Shown: positions 24,703 to 33,602 of the stretch, in pieces | Position numbering within the stretch: position 1 is the stretch's first letter | How the letters are laid out: the number at the start of each line of letters is the position of its first letter | NCBI GenBank assembly: GCA_020436085.1 | Contig: JAGQYM010000011.1 | Coordinates: forward strand, 1-64,000 | DNA from: Cyclobacteriaceae bacterium | GTDB taxonomy: Bacteria > Bacteroidota > Bacteroidia > Cytophagales > Cyclobacteriaceae | DNA: 64,000 nt | Direction: 5' to 3' | Made by a program: the position numbers and the translations under genes | The notes under the pieces: generated by a model | The model's input: the letters and a program-made list of their open reading frames with translations, nothing else | Database searches by the model: none | Told to the model about the DNA's origin: nothing

Positions 24703-24751
24703 TAGCGAGCCCTACCTCGTGGTTCTTGGTGGAATAGCCTTCTTTTCTAGA

Positions 24752-25171
24752 TAAGTCACGGTCATATACGGATAAGTCGCGGTCGTAAACGCGTAAGTCA
24801 CGGTCGTAAACGCGTAAGTCACGGTCGTATACGGGTAAGTCGCGGTCGTAAACGCGTAAGTCACGGTCGTATACGGGTAAGTCGCGGTCGTAAACGCAAA
24901 AGTCACGGTCGTATACGGGTAAGTCACGATCGTAAACGCAAAAGTCACGGTCGTATACGGATAAGTCACGGTCGTAAACGCGTAAGTCACGGTCGTGTAC
25001 GGATAAGTCATGATCGTAAGCGCAAAAGTCACGGTCGTATATGGATAAGTCACGGACGTAAACGCATAAGTCGGGGACGTGTACGGGTAAGTCATGGTCG
25101 TATAAGGATAAGTCTGGGACGTAGACGGGCTAGCCAAAGTCGCAGGCGGGTCAGTTGAGGTCGGGTAACGA
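24752..25171. repeat. 21-bp tandem repeat array, about 18 good plus 2 decayed units
   Basis: Units begin TAAGTCACGGTCGTA and are 21 bp long with no length variation from 24752 to 25129; two degenerate units follow. The last bases alternate between TACGGG/A and AACGCG/A, giving a 42-bp higher-order period over much of the array. The left (24752) side is most uniform and divergence grows to the right. Since 21 is a multiple of 3, the minus strand stays open and reads TYPYTTVTYAFTTV repeats, most likely by chance. The 678-bp gap (24671-25348) holds this array and an AT-rich leader before 25349. Confidence 0.92.
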
Positions 25172-25348
25172 TCGGGTGGGCACCTCAAAGTCGGAGCGGC
25201 TCACGGGTTGTGGTCAGAAGTCAGATGGAAAAACCTTTTTTGGTTGATGTAAAAAAAAGTAAAATATTTTTTTGAAAAATTGGAAATTCCTGAAACTTAA
25301 TTTTTCGTGTAGCGTGTTAATCAGTATATAACTTAAACAACAAAAGTT

Positions 25349-26068
25349 ATGACACATGTTAAAAACGTGCAAGCCTTTGGGAAGCTCACGGGCATCTGCA
25401 CCGGGTACGGAGGACAGTACAACCCCGGAAAACAAAACCTCCAGGTGAAAGCGATGGCCACCTTATGGACCAAAGCACAACAGGCGATGGAAGCAGTCAA
25501 CGAAGCGAAGAGCCTCTACGACATTGCCACCAACGACCGGGTACGTGGTTTCTACGGCCTGCGAAAACTTAGCTCGAGTGTGATCGCACTCCTGAAGATG
25601 AGCGGTGCTCATGAGCTGACGATTCAGGACGCAGTAACCAACAACCGGAAGATTTGGGGCACGCGCAAAGCCAATCGCAAGGCGAATGCCGAGATCCAGG
25701 CAGATGAAGTCAAAAGGAAGTCTACCTTCGTCTACAGCCAGGACTACGCAAGCATTGCAAACTACTTTGCGCAGATCGTGGAGACGATTTCGAAGGAGCC
25801 GAAGTACCAGCCAAACGAGCCGCACATGTCGGTGGAGGGCCTTCAGAAGAAAGTGAAGGAGCTACATCAACTGAACAATGCAGTGACGGCAGCGGAAATC
25901 AGGCTGAAGCAGGCCAAGCGGGATCGTGACGAGCTGTACTACAAGGTTGAAGGCAACCTGTTCGAGACAGCACTGGCGGCAAAACTGTATGTCCGTGGAA
26001 TCTTTGGTTACCAAAGTTCACAACATCTGGAAGTCAGATCACTACGTTTCACTAAACCCCACTTCTGA
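25349..26068 (+). CDS. 239-residue hypothetical cytoplasmic protein
   Basis: Not recognised. The start is an ATG after an AT-rich leader. The N-terminus KLTGICTGYGGQYNPGK is Gly-rich. The rest is largely helical and charged (MATLWTKAQQAMEAVNEAKS, GLRKLSSSVIALLKMSGAHE, AAEIRLKQAKRDRDELYYKV), suggesting a helical bundle with coiled coil. There is no signal peptide or membrane segment. A good terminator follows after 20 bp, so it is a single-gene unit. DNA or protein binding is possible, but nothing shows it directly. Confidence 0.75.
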   Translation: MTHVKNVQAFGKLTGICTGYGGQYNPGKQNLQVKAMATLWTKAQQAMEAVNEAKSLYDIATNDRVRGFYGLRKLSSSVIALLKMSGAHELTIQDAVTNNRKIWGTRKANRKANAEIQADEVKRKSTFVYSQDYASIANYFAQIVETISKEPKYQPNEPHMSVEGLQKKVKELHQLNNAVTAAEIRLKQAKRDRDELYYKVEGNLFETALAAKLYVRGIFGYQSSQHLEVRSLRFTKPHF

Positions 26069-26087
26069 TGCGACACCACGCTAAATG

Positions 26088-26123
26088 AAAAACCTCTGCG
26101 GTAAGACTGCGGAGGTTTTTTGC
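26088..26123 (+). terminator. Rho-independent terminator
   Basis: Stem AACCTCTGC/GCGGAGGTT with an 8-base loop and one G-T pair, then TTTTTT, 20 bp after the stop at 26068. Confidence 0.88.
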
Positions 26124-27533: not shown

Positions 27534-27744
27534 GGTTCGTGTCCCCACGAACCAGGGATGGGAATATTGAACAGGAAAGTTATAATGCAATACCTCAGCC
27601 AAGGTTCGTGTCCCCACGAACCAAGGGCAAGGTTGAATACCTTGGTATATTGAAGATAACTAACCTGTCATCCTGAAAAGTTATTCGACTATTTCATAAC
27701 TTTCAATTAACTAAAATTCTCAGCCAGGGTTCGTGTTCCGAACC
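27534..27744. repeat. REP palindromes 1-3 (direct orientation)
   Basis: GGTTCGTGTCCCCACGAACC at 27534-27553 and 27603-27622, and a 3-bp-shorter decayed copy at 27728-27744. Each can fold as an 8-bp stem with a 4-base loop. Copies 2 and 3 are preceded by AGCC. They fill most of the 300-bp gap between the acyltransferase and TfoX-domain genes; no gene is seen there. Confidence 0.92.
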
Positions 27745-27763
27745 AAGGATAAAAAATTAGAAT

Positions 27764-28087
27764 ATGGCCTCCGATCAAAAGTTTGTCGACTTTGTACTGG
27801 ACCAGATTGAAAAGGCAGGTACAATCACCGCGAGGAATATGTTTGGTGAATACGTGCTGTATGCAGATGGAAAGTTATTTGCATTGATTGGTGACAACCG
27901 TTTGTTCATCAAGCCCACTGCAGCCGGTCGTGCGTTCATTGGTAAGGTAACGGAAGCTCCGCCTTATCCAGGAGCAAAGAATTGCTTTTTGATTGAAGAC
28001 AAATTGGAAGACCGAAAATGGTTGAGTGAGTTGGTGAGGATAACGGCAAAGGAATTGCCCAAAGCCAAAAAAGAAAAAGGCGGCTAA
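27764..28087 (+). CDS. TfoX N-terminal domain protein, 3' frameshift likely
   Basis: 107 residues. ARNMFGEYVLYADGKLFALI, NRLFIKPTAAGRAF and a LVRITAKELPK end are typical of the TfoX/Sxy N-terminal domain (small single-domain proteins in Bacteroidota; role unclear here). The frame closes at 28087 with PKAKKEKGG. In the +1 frame the sequence continues PKPKKKKAAKKKPAKKTL to TAA 28128-28130, a Lys-rich tail common in these proteins. Removing one C from CCC at 28058-28060 would join the two. The main domain is intact either way. Confidence 0.82.
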   Translation: MASDQKFVDFVLDQIEKAGTITARNMFGEYVLYADGKLFALIGDNRLFIKPTAAGRAFIGKVTEAPPYPGAKNCFLIEDKLEDRKWLSELVRITAKELPKAKKEKGG

Positions 28088-28156
28088 GAAGAAGCCAGCA
28101 AAGAAGACCCTTAAAAAGAAAAAGAAATAAGATTCAGTCCGCTTTGCTATTGAGAT

Positions 28157-28216
28157 TTCCCATTTTTGGTTGATTTAAGAAACGAGTTTTGAATTGGATT
28201 GGGATCGGTTCGTGGG
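28157..28216 (+). repeat. 60-bp direct repeat, left copy (RAYT 3'-end fragment)
   Basis: Identical base for base to 29933-29992. The first 36 bp encode the last residues of the RAYT (FPFLVDLRNEF and stop) and the rest runs into an inverted REP. Here no RAYT body lies upstream, so this is an isolated copy of the transposase gene end. The two copies bound a 1,776-bp unit. Confidence 0.9.
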
Positions 28217-28310
28217 GACACGAACCGATGCTGGGAAGGATTGAGGGCGAACCATTAGCCAAGACCCGTAGCCAAGAACCCGTAGCCAAGGTTCGTGTCC
28301 CCACGAACCA
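28206..28310. repeat. REP pair A (inverted REP, spacer, direct REP)
   Basis: Inverted REP (GGGA loop) at 28207-28226, a spacer beginning GATGCTGGGAAGGATTG, three partial copies of GTAGCCAAG, then a direct REP (TCCC loop) at 28290-28309 continuing GGCTGGTCCTGACTCTA. The same inverted-spacer-direct order recurs at 29230 and 30087. It forms a BIME-like unit. Confidence 0.9.
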
Positions 28311-28332
28311 GGCTGGTCCTGACTCTAGCGAA

Positions 28333-29115
28333 ATGAGTGATGTTGAAACCCTGATCTATAAGTTTGAATCACCCCAGCGCAAGGTGATGCTATTCCTCCA
28401 TCAATTGCTCACCCGCGAGTATAGCCTTGTCGACAAAGTGACATTCAGCAATCCATGCTACTATGGCAAGAGTTGGATCTGTTATTTGAAAGCTTTGAAG
28501 AATGGTAAGACTGAGATAGCCTTTATGCGTGGCAATGAGTTGTCGAACGCGAATGGATTACTCAGGAGTGAGGGAAGAAAACAACTGAGGAGTCTGATTG
28601 TGACTTCTGTAAAAGACATACCACTAAAGAAGTTCAAGGAAGTAATTAAAGAAGCGATGGTATTGGATGAGGCAATACCCTATGCTTCTAAAAGAACAAA
28701 ACAGAAGACTTATAAACCTAGCAAAATGAATAAGGAAGTCAGAGACTACAACAGCACACTGGAAGATTCAGACAAGAAGATCTGTAATAAGCTTGCAAAG
28801 ATTATAAATGAAACGCTCCCCGAGGCGGACAACAAGATATGGCATGCCCATCCCGTGTGGTTTCTGGATGGCAATCCTGTCGTAGGCTACAGCAAATTAA
28901 AAGGAAGCGTGCGGCTGTTGTTTTGGAGTGGCCAGACATTCCAAGAGGAAGGACTTCAAAATGAGGGAAAGTTCAAAGCAGCAGAAGCTCGATACACGTC
29001 AGCCAACGAAATTGACGAAGAAAGCCTCGTTCGTTGGCTTGAAAAGTCCCGCGACATCCAATGGGATTACAAGAATATCGTTAAGCGCAAGGGAAAGTTG
29101 GTAAGGTTGAAGTGA
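28333..29115 (+). CDS. Tandem DUF1801 protein
   Basis: 260 residues from the ATG at 28333. The open frame extends 48 codons upstream, but that part merely translates REP pair A. Two DUF1801-like (YdhG/frataxin-like fold) halves are visible: about 15-120 (RKVMLFLHQLL, FSNPCYYGKSWICYLKALKN, GRKQLRSLI, TSVKDIPLKKFKEVIKEA) and about 140-245 (LAKIINETLPEADNKIWHAH, PVWFLDGNPVVGYSKLKGSV, RLLFWSGQ). Most family members have one domain. Function unknown; small-molecule or metal binding is guessed for relatives. It is enclosed by REPs and lies inside the unit bounded by the 60-bp direct repeats. Confidence 0.85.
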   Translation: MSDVETLIYKFESPQRKVMLFLHQLLTREYSLVDKVTFSNPCYYGKSWICYLKALKNGKTEIAFMRGNELSNANGLLRSEGRKQLRSLIVTSVKDIPLKKFKEVIKEAMVLDEAIPYASKRTKQKTYKPSKMNKEVRDYNSTLEDSDKKICNKLAKIINETLPEADNKIWHAHPVWFLDGNPVVGYSKLKGSVRLLFWSGQTFQEEGLQNEGKFKAAEARYTSANEIDEESLVRWLEKSRDIQWDYKNIVKRKGKLVRLK

Positions 29116-29128
29116 GTTTTTTGGTATC

Positions 29129-29148
29129 GGTTCGTGGGGACACGAACC
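29129..29148 (-). repeat. REP palindrome (inverted), after the DUF1801 gene
   Basis: GGTTCGTGGGGACACGAACC, 13 bp after the stop at 29115, followed by GATGCT as in the other inverted copies. Confidence 0.92.
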
Positions 29149-29229
29149 GATGCTTTGGTTGGAGAGAGAGAAAATTGGTGAGGTCGAAGTGAGGTTTTTT
29201 TGGGAATTTTTGAGTTGGGGAGGAGAGAG

Positions 29230-29305
29230 CGGTTCGTGGGGACACGAACCGATGCTGGGAAGGATTGGGCCGAACCCTAGCCAAGGTTCGTGTCCCCACG
29301 AACCT
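29230..29305. repeat. REP pair B (BIME-like)
   Basis: Inverted REP 29231-29250, spacer GATGCTGGGAAGGATTGGGC, then CGAACCCTAGCCAA, then a direct REP 29285-29304 and TGGCTG. The spacer is nearly identical to that of pair A at 28206, so the pair moved or duplicated as a block. Confidence 0.92.
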
Positions 29306-29351
29306 GGCTGTTCGCGATGCTTTCGGATCGAAGTAATTTGATCGTAGCCAA

Positions 29352-29371
29352 GGTTCGTGTCCTCACGAACC
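29352..29371 (+). repeat. REP palindrome (direct) upstream of the RAYT
   Basis: GGTTCGTGTCCTCACGAACC with GTAGCCAA before it and TGGCTGGTCCTAACTCTA after it, the same right flank as the direct REP at 28290. It lies 39 bp before the RAYT start. Confidence 0.92.
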
Positions 29372-29410
29372 TGGCTGGTCCTAACTCTAAAGTAATAACA
29401 ATCAATCGCC

Positions 29411-29968
29411 ATGAGCGAAGATATCCTAAAGTCATTCCGAAAGTCCCATATTGAAATAGGCAAGATTTATTTCTGGACAGCAACTATAAATGGATGGCAA
29501 AGCCTGCTGGAGAAGGACAGATACAAAGACGTGGTGGTAAATTCATTGAGCCATTTAAGTGGGTGTAAAAAAATTGATGTATTTGCTTTTGTGATCATGC
29601 CCAACCACATCCACCTGATTTGGAGAGTGAATGGACCAAATGGCAAGGAGTTACCACATCATTCATTCTTGAAATACACGGCCCACGAATTTGAGAAAAT
29701 GTTGAGATCTGAAAATGCCGACTTGACTACTTATAAGGTTAATGCGCAAAACAAATTTTACGAATTTTGGAAACGAGATTCATTGGCCATCGAACTCTAT
29801 ACCGAGGGTGTAGCTTATCAAAAGCTGGATTACATTCATGCTAACCCTACCTCTGGCCGTTGGATGCTGGTGGATGATCCGATTGATTATAAATATTCGT
29901 CAATAAGATTTTATGAAGAGGATATTAAGGCGTTCCCATTTTTGGTTGATTTAAGAAACGAGTTTTGA
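29411..29968 (+). CDS. REP-associated tyrosine transposase (RAYT, TnpA_REP)
   Basis: 185-residue Y1 HUH transposase of the RAYT family. The HUH metal motif is VIMPNHIHLIW (His 66, His 68) and the likely nucleophile is the Tyr in KLDYIHANPTSGRW (Tyr 141). IGKIYFWTATINGW at the N-terminus and WKRDSLAIELYTEGVAYQKL are also family-like. RAYTs nick and join single-stranded REP DNA and are vertically kept single-copy genes rather than free-moving IS elements. Here REPs lie 39 bp upstream and 15 bp downstream, with about 15 within 3.6 kb. All visible catalytic residues are present, so the enzyme is probably active or recently so. Its 3' end is duplicated at 28157. Confidence 0.93.
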   Translation: MSEDILKSFRKSHIEIGKIYFWTATINGWQSLLEKDRYKDVVVNSLSHLSGCKKIDVFAFVIMPNHIHLIWRVNGPNGKELPHHSFLKYTAHEFEKMLRSENADLTTYKVNAQNKFYEFWKRDSLAIELYTEGVAYQKLDYIHANPTSGRWMLVDDPIDYKYSSIRFYEEDIKAFPFLVDLRNEF

Positions 29969-29992
29969 ATTGGATTGGGATCGGTTCGTGGG
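29933..29992 (+). repeat. 60-bp direct repeat, right copy
   Basis: Covers the last 36 bp of the RAYT gene and the following 24 bp into a decayed inverted REP. Identical to 28157-28216. Confidence 0.9.
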
Positions 29993-30024
29993 ACACTTGG
30001 GATTGGTTCGTGGGGACACGAACC
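29983..30024 (-). repeat. REPs after the RAYT (one decayed, one intact, inverted)
   Basis: A left-half REP GGTTCGTGGGACAC at 29984-29997, then an intact GGTTCGTGGGGACACGAACC at 30005-30024 followed by AATGCT. Confidence 0.88.
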
Positions 30025-30061
30025 AATGCTAAGAGGTGAGGTCGCAGTGAGTTTTTTTGGA

Positions 30062-30210
30062 GTTCGTGGGACACGAACCCATGCTAGGGTTCGTAGGGAC
30101 ACTAACCGATGCTGTGAAGGGGTGAGGGCGAACCCGTAGCCAAGGTTCGAGTCCGTAGCCAAGGTTCGTGTCCTCACGAACCTGGCAGTCGGTGTCCCCA
30201 CGAACCTGGC
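30062..30210. repeat. REP cluster C (two inverted, one direct, two halves)
   Basis: Inverted copies at 30062-30079 (loop shortened) and 30088-30107 (two changes), spacer GATGCTGTGAAGGGGTGAGG, a half copy after GTAGCCAAGG at 30136, a direct REP at 30163-30182, and a right half ending CCCCACGAACCTGGC at 30210. TATCTTTG at 30221-30228 follows as a promoter-like word for the gene at 30255. Confidence 0.88.
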
Positions 30211-30254
30211 AACGAATTCCTATCTTTGATTATCTTCCTAACGCCCACACACCT

Positions 30255-31418
30255 ATGCAATCAATAAAATACCTCATATCCTCAGCTGTTCTCGTGATTA
30301 TCCTAACAGGATGCGCGAAGACACAATCAAATGAGAGTGATGCCTTTACCTGGGAGGTTTCCGCTCCCGAGGCAGAGGGCATTGACGGTGCAATCATTGA
30401 CTCCCTTCATCGCGATCTTCAAAGCGGATCCTATGGATTAGTTGATCACTTTCTCCTAATTCGGAATGGAAAGATTGTGGCTGATCATCACTATGACCAC
30501 GATTACAAAACCATTTCTCAGATTTACGATACGGCACGCCATCAATACAACTACGATCATCCCGACTGGCATCCTTACTACCAATACAGCGACCTGCACT
30601 CACTGCAATCTGTAACCAAGACAGTCACCTCGATATTGCTAGGTATTGCTAAGGACCAAGGTATGTCAATTCACCTGGACTCTGCTATCCTTCCTCTGTT
30701 TGGCGACTACAATATTGATAGGACAGACAAGTTAAAAATGTCGATCACCTTGCACGACCTATTAACCATGCGAAGCGGAATCCTATGGGATGAATCTTCC
30801 TCCTATGCAGATGATTCATTAAATAATTGTACTGCCATGGAGCTGAAAGAAGATTGGATTCAATACGTGCTTGACAGGCCGATGGACACCATACCGGGAA
30901 CGAAGTGGGTTTACAATAGCGGTGTTTCAGTGTTGCTTGGAAAGATTGTGAGTATCGCAACGGGAAAAGGCTTAGATACCTGGGCTGAAGAAAAACTTTT
31001 CGGGCCGCTCGGCATCACCGACTACTATTGGAAGAAGACGCCATTGGGAGAAGTGGATTCAGAAGGTGGACTGTATCTCAAGCCACATGATCTGGCCAGG
31101 ATTGCTTTAATGGTATTACAAAAAGGACAGTGGCAAGGACAGCAAATTGTGTCAGAGGAATGGTTGAAACAATCTGTGGAACCATTTGTATCTCTTTCCG
31201 ATCAAGTTGGCTATGGCTTTCAATGGTGGCTCACTGTTGACGGTGATGAAACCATTGCTTACGATATGAATGGATACGGAGGACAGTTTGTAAATATCAT
31301 ACCAGCCAGCAATATGATCGTGGTATTCAACGGATGGAATATCCATGAAAGTAATAAGAGGGTGACCTTGAATTTCTTTAAAGAAAGAATCTTACCAGCT
31401 ATAAAGTCCGATAATTAG
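30255..31418 (+). CDS. Serine hydrolase lipoprotein (class C beta-lactamase fold)
   Basis: 387 residues from the ATG at 30255, which starts a lipoprotein signal (VLVIILTGCAK); the longer frame reads back into REPs. Active-site SxxK is in LHSLQSVTKTVTSILLGIA, the YxN motif is WVYNSGVSVLLG, and a GYGGQFVNI strand near the end matches the third element of the family. HDLLTMRSGILWDE is the usual mid-domain loop. Such proteins are esterases, D-aminopeptidases or peptidases rather than antibiotic beta-lactamases; substrate unknown. Two more homologues occur at 45385 and 62792. Confidence 0.92.
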   Translation: MQSIKYLISSAVLVIILTGCAKTQSNESDAFTWEVSAPEAEGIDGAIIDSLHRDLQSGSYGLVDHFLLIRNGKIVADHHYDHDYKTISQIYDTARHQYNYDHPDWHPYYQYSDLHSLQSVTKTVTSILLGIAKDQGMSIHLDSAILPLFGDYNIDRTDKLKMSITLHDLLTMRSGILWDESSSYADDSLNNCTAMELKEDWIQYVLDRPMDTIPGTKWVYNSGVSVLLGKIVSIATGKGLDTWAEEKLFGPLGITDYYWKKTPLGEVDSEGGLYLKPHDLARIALMVLQKGQWQGQQIVSEEWLKQSVEPFVSLSDQVGYGFQWWLTVDGDETIAYDMNGYGGQFVNIIPASNMIVVFNGWNIHESNKRVTLNFFKERILPAIKSDN

Positions 31419-31561
31419 TTGAACTGGCATTTCAGTAAAGAGATTGGAAGAGAAAGGAGTTTGGTAGATTCTTCCGTGCCTGCGGCAGACAGTCGTGCGG
31501 CCAATAGGCTAGACTCCCTCTGAATGACGAGCAAGACTGCTAGAATCCCTATCTTTATCTG

Positions 31562-32539
31562 TTGAAGCATTTCAGGGTTACCCTTCTGTTCTTATGCGTT
31601 TCACTTTCATCCTTTTCAGGGGATGTTGGTACAGATGAGGATTATCTGGAGTATCATCGGCAGATCACTGAAGCCGAGAGCCTGATAGCGGAGGAGCGTT
31701 ATGAGGAAGCACTAAGAATTTATAACAACGTGTTTAGTTCGTATGATTTTATTTTCGTGCGCGACTACAAAGTGGCCACACAACTGGCGTGGTATATGAA
31801 GGACAGGGATCAAACCTTTGGGTATTTACATGATGCCGTCAAGTCAGGCTGGACTCTTAAGTCAATTAAAAAGAATGATTTTCTTAAGCCATTGCGCAAA
31901 GAACCAGAGTGGAAAAAGACTAAAAAAGATTATGATCGCTTGAGAACTGATTATGCCGCACGTTTAAATAAACCTCTGCGTGAATCCGTACACGAAATGA
32001 GCCGGCAAGATCAAAAGAAAGCGTTAGGTGCCCTCTTCAGGATTGGAGACAAAGCTCAAACCCGATATGCGGAGAAGAAATTTGAGCCTCACAGCGTTCA
32101 GCAGATGCATAAACTGATTGAAATATTAGATCGTGATGGCTACCCGGGAGAAAAATTAATTGGCAATAGTTTCTGGATGTCAACCATTTTGAGCCATCAC
32201 AACTCCATCTCACCGGAATATTGCAAAAAAGACACCTTGTATACTTATGTTCGACCTCAACTGCTTCGTTCTGTTGCCAAAGGAGAAATGTCACCTTATG
32301 AATATGCGTTGGTGGATGATTGGAGAACAGTTGTGGAATTCGGAAGAGATACACCCGGATACGGATTCCTGAGTCAACCCACTCAGGCTACACTAGAGCA
32401 TACTGATATGCTGAGACAGGGAATTGGACTAAGAACTGTCGAGTTGCGCAATAAGCTTATAGATATCGAAAGTAAGACGGGCATGAACTTCTACCTTCCG
32501 TCATGGGTTAAAGGAAAGATCAAAGTTGTATCTAATTAG
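31562..32539 (+). CDS. Exported TPR-like protein, unknown function
   Basis: 325 residues from a TTG at 31562 that opens directly on a signal peptide (KHFRVTLLFLCVSLSSFSG); no nearby ATG gives one. The N-terminal half is helical and TPR-like (AESLIAEERYEEALRIYNNV, ATQLAWYMKDRDQTFGYLHD); the C-terminal half has a YGFLSQPTQATLEHTDMLR stretch. No catalytic motif seen. CTATCTTTATC lies just upstream as a promoter-like word. It precedes the flavin reductase gene by 2 bp, so three genes form an operon. Confidence 0.8.
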   Translation: MKHFRVTLLFLCVSLSSFSGDVGTDEDYLEYHRQITEAESLIAEERYEEALRIYNNVFSSYDFIFVRDYKVATQLAWYMKDRDQTFGYLHDAVKSGWTLKSIKKNDFLKPLRKEPEWKKTKKDYDRLRTDYAARLNKPLRESVHEMSRQDQKKALGALFRIGDKAQTRYAEKKFEPHSVQQMHKLIEILDRDGYPGEKLIGNSFWMSTILSHHNSISPEYCKKDTLYTYVRPQLLRSVAKGEMSPYEYALVDDWRTVVEFGRDTPGYGFLSQPTQATLEHTDMLRQGIGLRTVELRNKLIDIESKTGMNFYLPSWVKGKIKVVSN

Positions 32540-32541
32540 AC

Positions 32542-33069
32542 ATGCCCAAAATACTTGCTATCAACGGAAGCGCCACGCCCAACTCATCCAACTTGACATT
32601 GATTAATAAGGTGCGTGATCTCGTGGGCAGCGAATTTGAGTTTCATATTTATGATGACCTGGCCATTCTACCTCATTTCAATACAGAGTTCACGGACAAC
32701 AATATGCCAAATGAAGTTGTGAAATTCAGAGAGGCGGTTATCAGTGCTGATGGTGTACTGATTTGTACTCCGGAATATGTGTTCAGCATACCCAGCCGAC
32801 TAAAGAACGCAATTGAATGGTGTGTGTCGACTGTTGTGTTTTCAGATAAACCGACCGGAATCATTACCGCATCTGCAAGCGGAATGAAAGGACACGAAGA
32901 ACTACAGCTTATCATGAGAACAGTTCAGGCTGACTTTAATGACGAGACAACTTTACTTATCCAGGGGATAAAAGGTAAGATCAACGGTGAAGGAGAGGTT
33001 ACTCATCAAGCCACACGAGAGTCATTGGATCATTTTGCTCAATCTTTCGTACAACTGGTATCCAAGTGA
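32542..33069 (+). CDS. NADPH-dependent FMN reductase family protein
   Basis: 175-residue flavodoxin-fold protein. The phosphate-binding loop is ILAINGSATPNSSN and the family signature is ICTPEYVFSIPSRLKNAIEW. It should bind FMN and reduce quinones, azo compounds or metals with NAD(P)H. It is cytoplasmic. It sits 2 bp after the TPR-like gene and overlaps the next gene by ATGA (33066-33069). Confidence 0.93.
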   Translation: MPKILAINGSATPNSSNLTLINKVRDLVGSEFEFHIYDDLAILPHFNTEFTDNNMPNEVVKFREAVISADGVLICTPEYVFSIPSRLKNAIEWCVSTVVFSDKPTGIITASASGMKGHEELQLIMRTVQADFNDETTLLIQGIKGKINGEGEVTHQATRESLDHFAQSFVQLVSK

Positions 33070-33434
33070 TGACGGATTTAGATCACTACTATTTAAATAA
33101 AGAAGAACCCAACAAGAGTTGCTTGCTTGCCTTACGGGAATTGATTCTATCTCAGGACGAGAATATATCGGAGACCAGAAAGTACGGTATGCCTTGTTTT
33201 TGTTATAAAAAGAAAATGTTCTGCTACCTCTGGACGGATAAGAAGACAGACGAGCCTTACATACTGATGGTCGAAGGCACTCATCTCTCACATGCTAAGT
33301 TAGAAACCGGTGATCGCTCGCGTATGAAAATATTTCGTGTGAACCCAACAAAGGACATTCCGGTTAAGACCATCAAGTCCATACTCAAGCAAGCCTTGGA
33401 TTTATATAGAATGGGAGTGATCAAGGTTAAATAA
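33066..33434 (+). CDS. DUF1801 protein (single domain)
   Basis: 122 residues, translationally coupled to the flavin reductase. It shows TRKYGMPCFCYKKKMFCYL, ILMVEGTHLSHAKLE, and TKDIPVKTIKSILKQALDLY, the same order as each half of the tandem protein at 28333. Its last 33 bp are duplicated downstream (33496 onward) together with part of a REP. Function unknown for the family. Confidence 0.85.
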   Translation: MMTDLDHYYLNKEEPNKSCLLALRELILSQDENISETRKYGMPCFCYKKKMFCYLWTDKKTDEPYILMVEGTHLSHAKLETGDRSRMKIFRVNPTKDIPVKTIKSILKQALDLYRMGVIKVK

Positions 33435-33602
33435 CGTTCGACCTCGGAGTGTTCGACCCGGATCGGTTCGTGAGGACACGAACCTATGCTGGTATCCCTA
33501 TACAGAAATGGAGTGATCAAGGTTAAATAGAGCTCGACCTCGGACTGTTCGGCCCGGATCGGTTCGTATCCCCCTTAGTCAAGGTTCGTGTCCCCACGAG
33601 CC
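33401..33602. repeat. Duplicated gene end plus REPs
   Basis: 33401-33471 (end of the DUF1801 gene, then CGACCTCGGAGTGTTCGACC and CGGATCGGTTCGT) recurs with a few changes at 33496-33567. An inverted REP (33465-33484) lies at the end of the first copy, a half REP at the end of the second, and a direct REP at 33583-33602. TATCTTTG occurs at 33627. Confidence 0.88.

Follow-up and report, generated by a model that had tools for sequence, protein, structure and literature searches.

A probable RAYT/REP locus of the Bacteroidota, with hairpin stems that follow the transposase lineage and a foot other than GTAG

A RAYT gene within a dense cluster of hairpins

We analysed a 64,000-nt stretch of DNA from a Cyclobacteriaceae bacterium (Bacteroidota; positions 1 to 64,000 of contig JAGQYM010000011.1, GenBank assembly GCA_020436085.1), referred to here as the window, in which the gene of a REP-associated tyrosine transposase (RAYT, or TnpA-REP) lies among hairpins resembling repetitive extragenic palindromes (REPs). 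We concluded that this is very probably a RAYT/REP locus (REPtron) whose transposase belongs to a Bacteroidota branch of the family, and that the gene probably encodes a domesticated single-strand DNA transposase that cuts and spreads its hairpins. We observed the protein family, the hairpins with their inverted pairing and local clustering, the match of stem type to RAYT lineage, a foot beside the stem and copies of gene ends. The gene and its hairpins, in forward (F) or inverted (I) orientation and including pairs that resemble REPINs (REP doublets forming hairpins), are as follows.

29411..29968, + strand, RAYT (TnpA-REP) gene, 185 aa, HUH (NHIHLIW) and Y...NP (YIHANP) motifs; NF047646 and 4ER8 profile match
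27534..27553, + strand, REP, F orientation (exact pattern search)
27603..27622, + strand, REP, F orientation (exact pattern search)
28207..28309, unstranded, REPIN-like inverted pair, feet inward (I 28207-28226, F 28290-28309)
29129..29148, - strand, REP, I orientation (exact pattern search)
29231..29304, unstranded, REPIN-like inverted pair (I 29231-29250, F 29285-29304)
29352..29371, + strand, REP, F orientation, nearest upstream of the RAYT gene; GTAGCCAA precedes the stem (pattern search)
30005..30024, - strand, REP, I orientation, the first full copy after the RAYT gene; with 29352 an inverted pair, feet outward
30061..30079, - strand, REP, I orientation, 3-nt loop (pattern search)
30088..30182, unstranded, degenerate REPIN-like pair (I 30088-30107 with two mismatches, F 30163-30182)
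30188..30206, + strand, damaged REP, F orientation (mismatch search)
33465..33602, unstranded, REP pair enclosing a duplicated gene end (I 33465-33484; F 33583-33602, one mismatch)

The HUH motif (NHIHLIW) and the single tyrosine (YIHANP), which a first-pass annotation of this DNA had recognized by inspection, were found at residues 66 and 141 of the RAYT open reading frame (ORF). We aligned the window protein with those from 53 of 80 loci in named genomes (54 proteins); these 80 loci are the best of at least 186 relatives, 77 of them with Bacteroidota-type and three with Ignavibacteria-type hosts. NF047646 (REP_Tyr_transpos) matched all 54 aligned proteins at an E-value of 0.001, Pfam Y1_Tnp matched 35, and a profile built from the 54 RAYTs found 4ER8, the E. 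coli TnpArep, with an E-value of 2e-5. In the second segment of this match, which is not significant alone (i-Evalue 5.6), E. coli W94 aligns with W120 of the window RAYT and Q95 with K121, where the consensus of the 54 proteins has Q. E100, H101 and R104, which are named among the residues around GTAG recognition (PMC6006769; statements on this and the other cited papers refer to parts of their texts), correspond in the same segment to A126, I127 and Y130. The distance from the HUH motif to the tyrosine is 75 residues in the window RAYT, 73–76 in its clade and 82–86 in many paralogues of the genus.

The window RAYT is present once in its own genome, together with one paralogue of 31% identity on contig 33 that has its own CGGAAG hairpins, and near-identical whole copies, as in IS200/IS605, were not found there. 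We also considered carriage of the gene by plasmids or phages; four plasmid records held relatives of 29–32% identity only, and phage matches were none.

Exact palindromes of the form GGTTCGTG-N2-8-CACGAACC occur 11 times in the window, all within 27534-33484, and 100 shuffled sequences gave none. When up to two mismatches were allowed in the 14 core bases (GGTTCGTG-N3-4-CACGAACC), we obtained 15 hairpins between about 27534 and 33602 and none in the rest of the window, which agrees with the first-pass count of at least 15 around the RAYT gene and none outside. By eye we found another four copies, half or truncated (27728, 29982, 30144 and 33561). All the 19 whole, damaged and half copies are extragenic, given the gene starts that we chose (ATG 28333 for the DUF1801 gene and ATG 30255 for the beta-lactamase-like gene); the longest mechanical ORFs, from 28189 and 30168, would overlap some of the hairpins. 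The loops are mostly TCC[CT] in the F copies and its reverse complement in the I copies, and the RAYT gene is bracketed by inverted hairpins (F 29352 and I 30005).

Four I–F pairs with feet inward were observed in the window (28207/28290, 29231/29285, 30088/30163 and 33465/33583). The first three, noticed earlier at 28206, 29230 and 30087 for their conserved spacer, GATGCTG(G/T)GAAGG, are real, the third being degenerate, and the fourth is an addition. Folding of the pairs as single-stranded DNA (ssDNA) and a genome-wide count had been proposed as checks. Upon folding, all four pairs were better than their shuffles, with z scores of −5.8, −7.8, −3.1 and −2.7 in the above order, and 0, 0, 1 and 2 of 200 shuffles were as good as the real pair. 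Three of the four fold into a single hairpin, as REPINs do, and the third pair favours separate hairpins.

The genome (4.4 Mb in 191 contigs) contains 15 exact copies of the palindrome, 11 of which lie in the RAYT cluster of about 6 kb and four as singles on other contigs. At up to two mismatches the genome-wide count was 19, with 13 in the cluster, and REPs are by definition elements of many copies. Of the two extra inexact copies elsewhere, one has a compensated pair in its stem (GGTCCGTG/CACGGACC) and the other an unrelated loop. A reversed control pattern gave zero matches in the same genome search. As the assembly is fragmented, copies residing in collapsed repeats may be missing from these counts.

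The stem type follows the RAYT lineage

Within the genus, the RAYT search listed about 140 matches, and the flanks of 91 loci were inspected. A RAYT-like match (E-value 1e-10) was present in 46 of 62 genus genomes. Relatives of 60–67% identity were found in G042, G046, G025, G037, G022, G036 and G050; in-frame stops interrupt the genes of G036 and G050, and G015 has a RAYT fragment of 71%. In the first six of these genomes the hairpin also occurs near the gene, upstream as well as downstream, with a mismatch in one G022 copy and in the G046 copies on one side; the G050 hairpins are decayed only. Across the genus the palindrome core is present in 20 of 62 genomes. It occurs in 8 of 9 genomes having the RAYT clade (the fragment and the two decayed genes counted as presence) versus 12 of 53 lacking it (Fisher p 0.0003), with 51 versus 24 copies when every match, odd loops too, is included.

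The neighbourhoods of G036 and G037 are common to the two, and the others give protein matches of 36% at most with the window or with each other; this comparison is a weak one, as the genus genomes show little synteny and four candidate stretches were scored per genome. By the same scoring, a syntenic relative suitable for an empty-site test was not found among the 62 genus genomes. The first-pass annotation had linked the hairpins to this RAYT by position. Orthologues that keep the hairpin beside the gene in differing neighbourhoods and in many genera support this link beyond position.

Next, we compared stem types over a wider set. The genus set of 92 frames was derived from 98 by removing four second frames below 100 aa, L115 (the same gene as L007) and the fragment L117; it overlaps with the named set, since L186 is apparently the L021 gene. 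An inverted pair with matching stems and complementary loops surrounds 51 of the 92 genus RAYT frames, whereas shuffled flanks gave 0 in each of three runs and re-paired flanks 1–7. Such a pair was found at 48 of the named loci and at none after shuffling the flanks; the pair at L161 is possibly due to chance. On a tree of 166 proteins (FastTree only, with a long-branch warning; frames outside 140–230 aa and identical proteins dropped), we placed the stem classes GGTTCGTG, GGTCTGTG, TTGGTG, TTGGTC, GTCGGTG, TCAGGT, CGCGTT, CAAGCG and GGCTGTG, leaving unlabelled the frames without a pair and 12 with a stem fitting no class. The 84 labelled RAYTs require 14 changes of stem type, versus a mean of 53.1 upon shuffling, and 0 of 200 shuffles were as low.

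At up to 3 kb on each side of the RAYT, the GTTCGTG hairpin was present at 17 of the 19 named loci whose RAYT is at least 56% identical to that of the window, at 7 of 10 with 50–55% and at 1 of 51 below 50%. Its hosts include Niabella, a member of the Chitinophagales, as well as Pedobacter, Mangrovivirga and Marinoscillum, whose orders we take to be Sphingobacteriales and Cytophagales. As this hairpin belongs to a RAYT clade of many genera, the stem is common well beyond this genus, and the earlier view of it as the locus's own, unrelated to others, is not supported. Transfer between lineages is likely. These comparisons show a stem that varies by RAYT clade, and the RAYT/REP assignment is well supported.

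The foot beside the stem is not GTAG

The GTAGCC seen earlier before several stems had been likened to the GTAG recognition foot. Several stems do carry it; they are a minority. In the 14 nt on the 5' side of the stem, GT[AG]G was found at 3 of the 13 window hairpins examined, 0 of 23 from genus relatives and 2 of 66 from other genera; this count omits L044 (in G050) and hairpins whose loop does not start with T or does not end with A. In a 16-nt stretch including the outer stem bases it was found at 8 of 57 hairpins of the GGTTCGTG class. GTAG as the conserved foot is thus ruled out. At fixed positions beside the stem we observed instead G (93%), C (93%) and C (84%) in 57 hairpins from 19 loci. 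In the window, AG was present at 13/13 hairpins, AGC at 12/13 and AGCC at 5/13, so that AGC is followed by C or A, while the relatives mostly have GCC. The other stem classes have feet of their own: classes C and E mostly GCC (in E one base further out, from 15 hairpins), class B NCC, class D mostly GTT and class J CCC (from seven hairpins).

According to the model in PMC8266576, which concerns GTAG-footed systems, the foot guides the cut site, and feet other than GTAG should then shift it. We tentatively propose that the Bacteroidota RAYTs may be hairpin readers with a two-part code, in which a lineage-specific stem is combined with a lineage-varying 3-nt foot other than GTAG that would set a lineage-specific, predictable cut dinucleotide, in the way that GTAG sets it in a gammaproteobacterial system already studied. 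The low share of GCC among the window hairpins (5 of 13) and the weak alignment of the contact residues lower the likelihood of this proposal. In this set, the foot stands at a nearly fixed distance, with GCC mostly in three stem classes and NCC, GTT or CCC elsewhere. We found no GCC foot in the consulted parts of the RAYT/REP papers PMC6006769, PMC2817692, PMC3733652, PMC3686654, PMC8266576 and PMC12306157, whose supplements lie outside this scope, and we do not claim that it is unpublished. A set of RAYTs with known stems and other feet makes the recognition code readable from sequence and testable in vitro, where the REP recognition biochemistry of PMC8266576 concerns GTAG feet.

Copies of gene ends beside the hairpins

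Two gene ends in the window are copied together with the start of their REP.

28157..28221, + strand, duplicate (98.5% identity) of 29933-29996, covering the 3' end of the RAYT gene and the first part of the REP downstream
33499..33567, + strand, duplicate (88% identity) of 33403-33471, covering the 3' end of the neighbouring DUF1801 gene and the first part of that gene's REP

A partial RAYT copy lies near 31 of 172 RAYT frames, with thresholds of 25 coding nt and 75% identity. These comprise 20 tails, nine heads and nine internal parts, some frames falling in more than one class; tail and head copies are all in the orientation of the gene, and 5 of 12 internal matches are inverted. With a stricter threshold (40 nt, 80%) the number was 20/172, and the window drops out. 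One-ended copying from the foot was considered: in the few tandem cases viewed by eye the unit ended near a hairpin edge, but the conserved REPs blur this boundary and the number is small, and we do not claim it. We also considered that a gene cassette (TfoX, DUF1801 and FMN reductase) might be carried between REPs. The tight cluster and the gene-end copies show growth of a REP array beside its gene outside the proteobacteria.

Related arrangements were seen elsewhere. At three Algoriphagus loci (L139, L141 and L145), the 3' end of the upstream gene is copied (97–100%) downstream of the RAYT, in lengths that vary by species, and the RAYT thus stands between direct repeats of its neighbour's end. 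At L169, from a Cytophagales metagenome-assembled genome, the full-length RAYT has a second 5' half on its upstream side and a second 3' half on its downstream side, both 98–99% identical to it over the coding parts, an arrangement resembling one RAYT unit inserted into another. L116 (G041, contig C70) has two RAYT genes of another lineage, 94% identical over 736 bp and about 6.7 kb apart, possibly a recent duplication of the whole unit. Tandem REPs spaced by about 188 bp and about 107 bp occur at L047 (G011, C20) and L055 (G015, C7), on contigs without a listed RAYT match.

Upstream of the cluster, 24750-25129 of the window is a tandem array with a repeat unit of 21/42 bp (18 copies at 21 bp), part of which matches another contig of the genome (C66) at 78%, and precedes ORF 25349-26068. 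This ORF, within 25312-26121, belongs to a repeated family with 83% DNA identity in G035 and shorter matches of 80–81% in the genome's own C172 and C146; its Pfam crAss cargo match is weak and below the cut-off. One 73% match to 25312-26121 in G035 stops 34 bp before a GTTCGTG hairpin.

Proposed mechanism and alternative explanations

We infer binding, cleavage, strand transfer and the copying route from the published GTAG-footed systems. The RAYT would bind its own REP hairpin as folded ssDNA, probably on the lagging strand, and recognize it by its stem (GGTTCGTG/CACGAACC), its pyrimidine loop and its short foot (GCC in most relatives, AGC then C or A in the window). It would cut at the hairpin edge via Tyr141, and the strands would be rejoined. 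New REP and REPIN copies would be made mostly near the RAYT gene, and imperfect events might copy a neighbouring gene end, that of rayt included, together with the hairpin.

Several observations weigh against a RAYT/REP locus. The window RAYT scores 69.1 bits against NF047646, where the curated cut-off is 80, and the Pfam search matched no family in it; its HUH-to-tyrosine distance of 75 compares with a median of 82 given for TnpA-REP subclass 2.6. No inverted pair reached the threshold at 41 of the 92 frames from the genus and at 32 of the 80 named loci, some of the pairs have 6-bp stems or the order I–RAYT–F, and on one side in G046 the nearest hairpin has the same orientation, with the inverted copy next. 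Only 5 of 13 window hairpins are preceded by GCC, as against 12 by AGC. Between one and seven hairpins (seven in G011) occur in 12 of the 53 genus genomes without the RAYT clade, a finding named beforehand as evidence against the pairing; absence of the RAYT therefore does not mean absence of the hairpin, and loss of the RAYT could account for such genomes. Finally, gene-end copies were found for 7 of 80 RAYT genes and for 19 of 263 neighbouring ORFs, one of the latter itself a RAYT copy. Such copies thus mark REP-rich ground and not RAYT genes specially, and this control ruled out that rayt ends are copied more than those of other genes.

The last comparison bears on the idea that passive slippage and tandem duplication at palindromes built the cluster, the RAYT contributing little. 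Hairpins provoke slippage, gene ends with a REP are repeatedly found as tandem units on the downstream side of RAYTs, and neighbouring ORFs are affected equally often. Slippage leaves unexplained, however, the match of stem to RAYT lineage, the kept foot and the excess of hairpins in RAYT-bearing genomes, and we regard it as unlikely. It is also conceivable that the RAYT and its two nearest hairpins move as a whole unit, an IS200-like insertion sequence, with the other hairpins as relics of earlier insertions. The inverted hairpins bracketing the gene, the orthologues in different neighbourhoods and the patchy presence in the genus are in line with this, as is the 65% identity of the Niabella RAYT (among the best 80 of at least 186 relatives), about that of the genus relatives (60–67%); the two 94% copies at L116 would fit as well, but they belong to another lineage. 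Against it, the genome holds one copy and a 31% paralogue, REPtrons do not transpose as a unit and class 2 genes have low copy numbers according to PMC6006769, and the neighbourhood test is weak for the reasons of synteny and scoring given above. We consider movement as a whole unit rather improbable. That the hairpins are transcription terminators or mRNA stabilizers lying near the RAYT by chance we judge very improbable indeed. They do sit between genes, and REPs elsewhere in bacteria have such roles (background in PMC6006769), but the hairpins include none of the four terminator-like sites located between 27400 and 33800, Rfam gave no match, and the hairpins are packed in 6 kb with a stem that tracks the RAYT clade across genera.

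Comparison with known systems

The systems described in 2010 (PMC2817692) have a RAYT flanked by two inverted REPs, coevolution of RAYT and REP, and bacterial interspersed mosaic elements (BIMEs) beside rayt; REPs accumulate around rayt in four genomes, and in four cases a rayt 3' end has been copied into a BIME. The cluster near the window's rayt and the copy of its end thus both have precedent, and the window shares with these systems the RAYT between inverted REPs and the BIME-like pairs. The RAYTs that satisfied the criteria of that paper, however, are gammaproteobacterial (plus one betaproteobacterium for the clustering). Their feet are GT(A/G)G and their REPs mostly number from tens into the hundreds, whereas the window has another foot, 15–19 copies and a Bacteroidota host.

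The first-pass annotation placed RAYT/REP systems mainly in the gammaproteobacteria, which would imply few descriptions from the Bacteroidota; Bacteroidetes RAYTs with atypical hairpins were, however, published in 2018 (PMC6006769). Their TnpA-REP subclass 2.6, equal to Bertels RAYT group 5, is mostly from Bacteroidetes, without GT[AG]G and with an unconserved GTAG-contact region, and its hairpins flank the gene and occur elsewhere in the genome. The window RAYT, sharing the Bacteroidota host and hairpins without GT[AG]G, is best filed near this subclass by its features, as set beside the description of the subclass and not its sequences. The subclass 2.6 hairpins are called weak, which those of the window are not, and no foot sequence for the subclass was found in the consulted parts of PMC6006769.

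The E. coli TnpA-REP (4ER8; PMC8266576, 2021) is an HUH-Y1 protein to which the window RAYT is related by profile. The W94 equivalent is kept in the window protein and that of Q95 in most relatives. The E. coli REP stem needs a bulge (PMC8266576), whereas the window stem has none. A RAYT/REP system is of a kind already known, and what sets the window apart is the differing recognition foot beside the hairpin.

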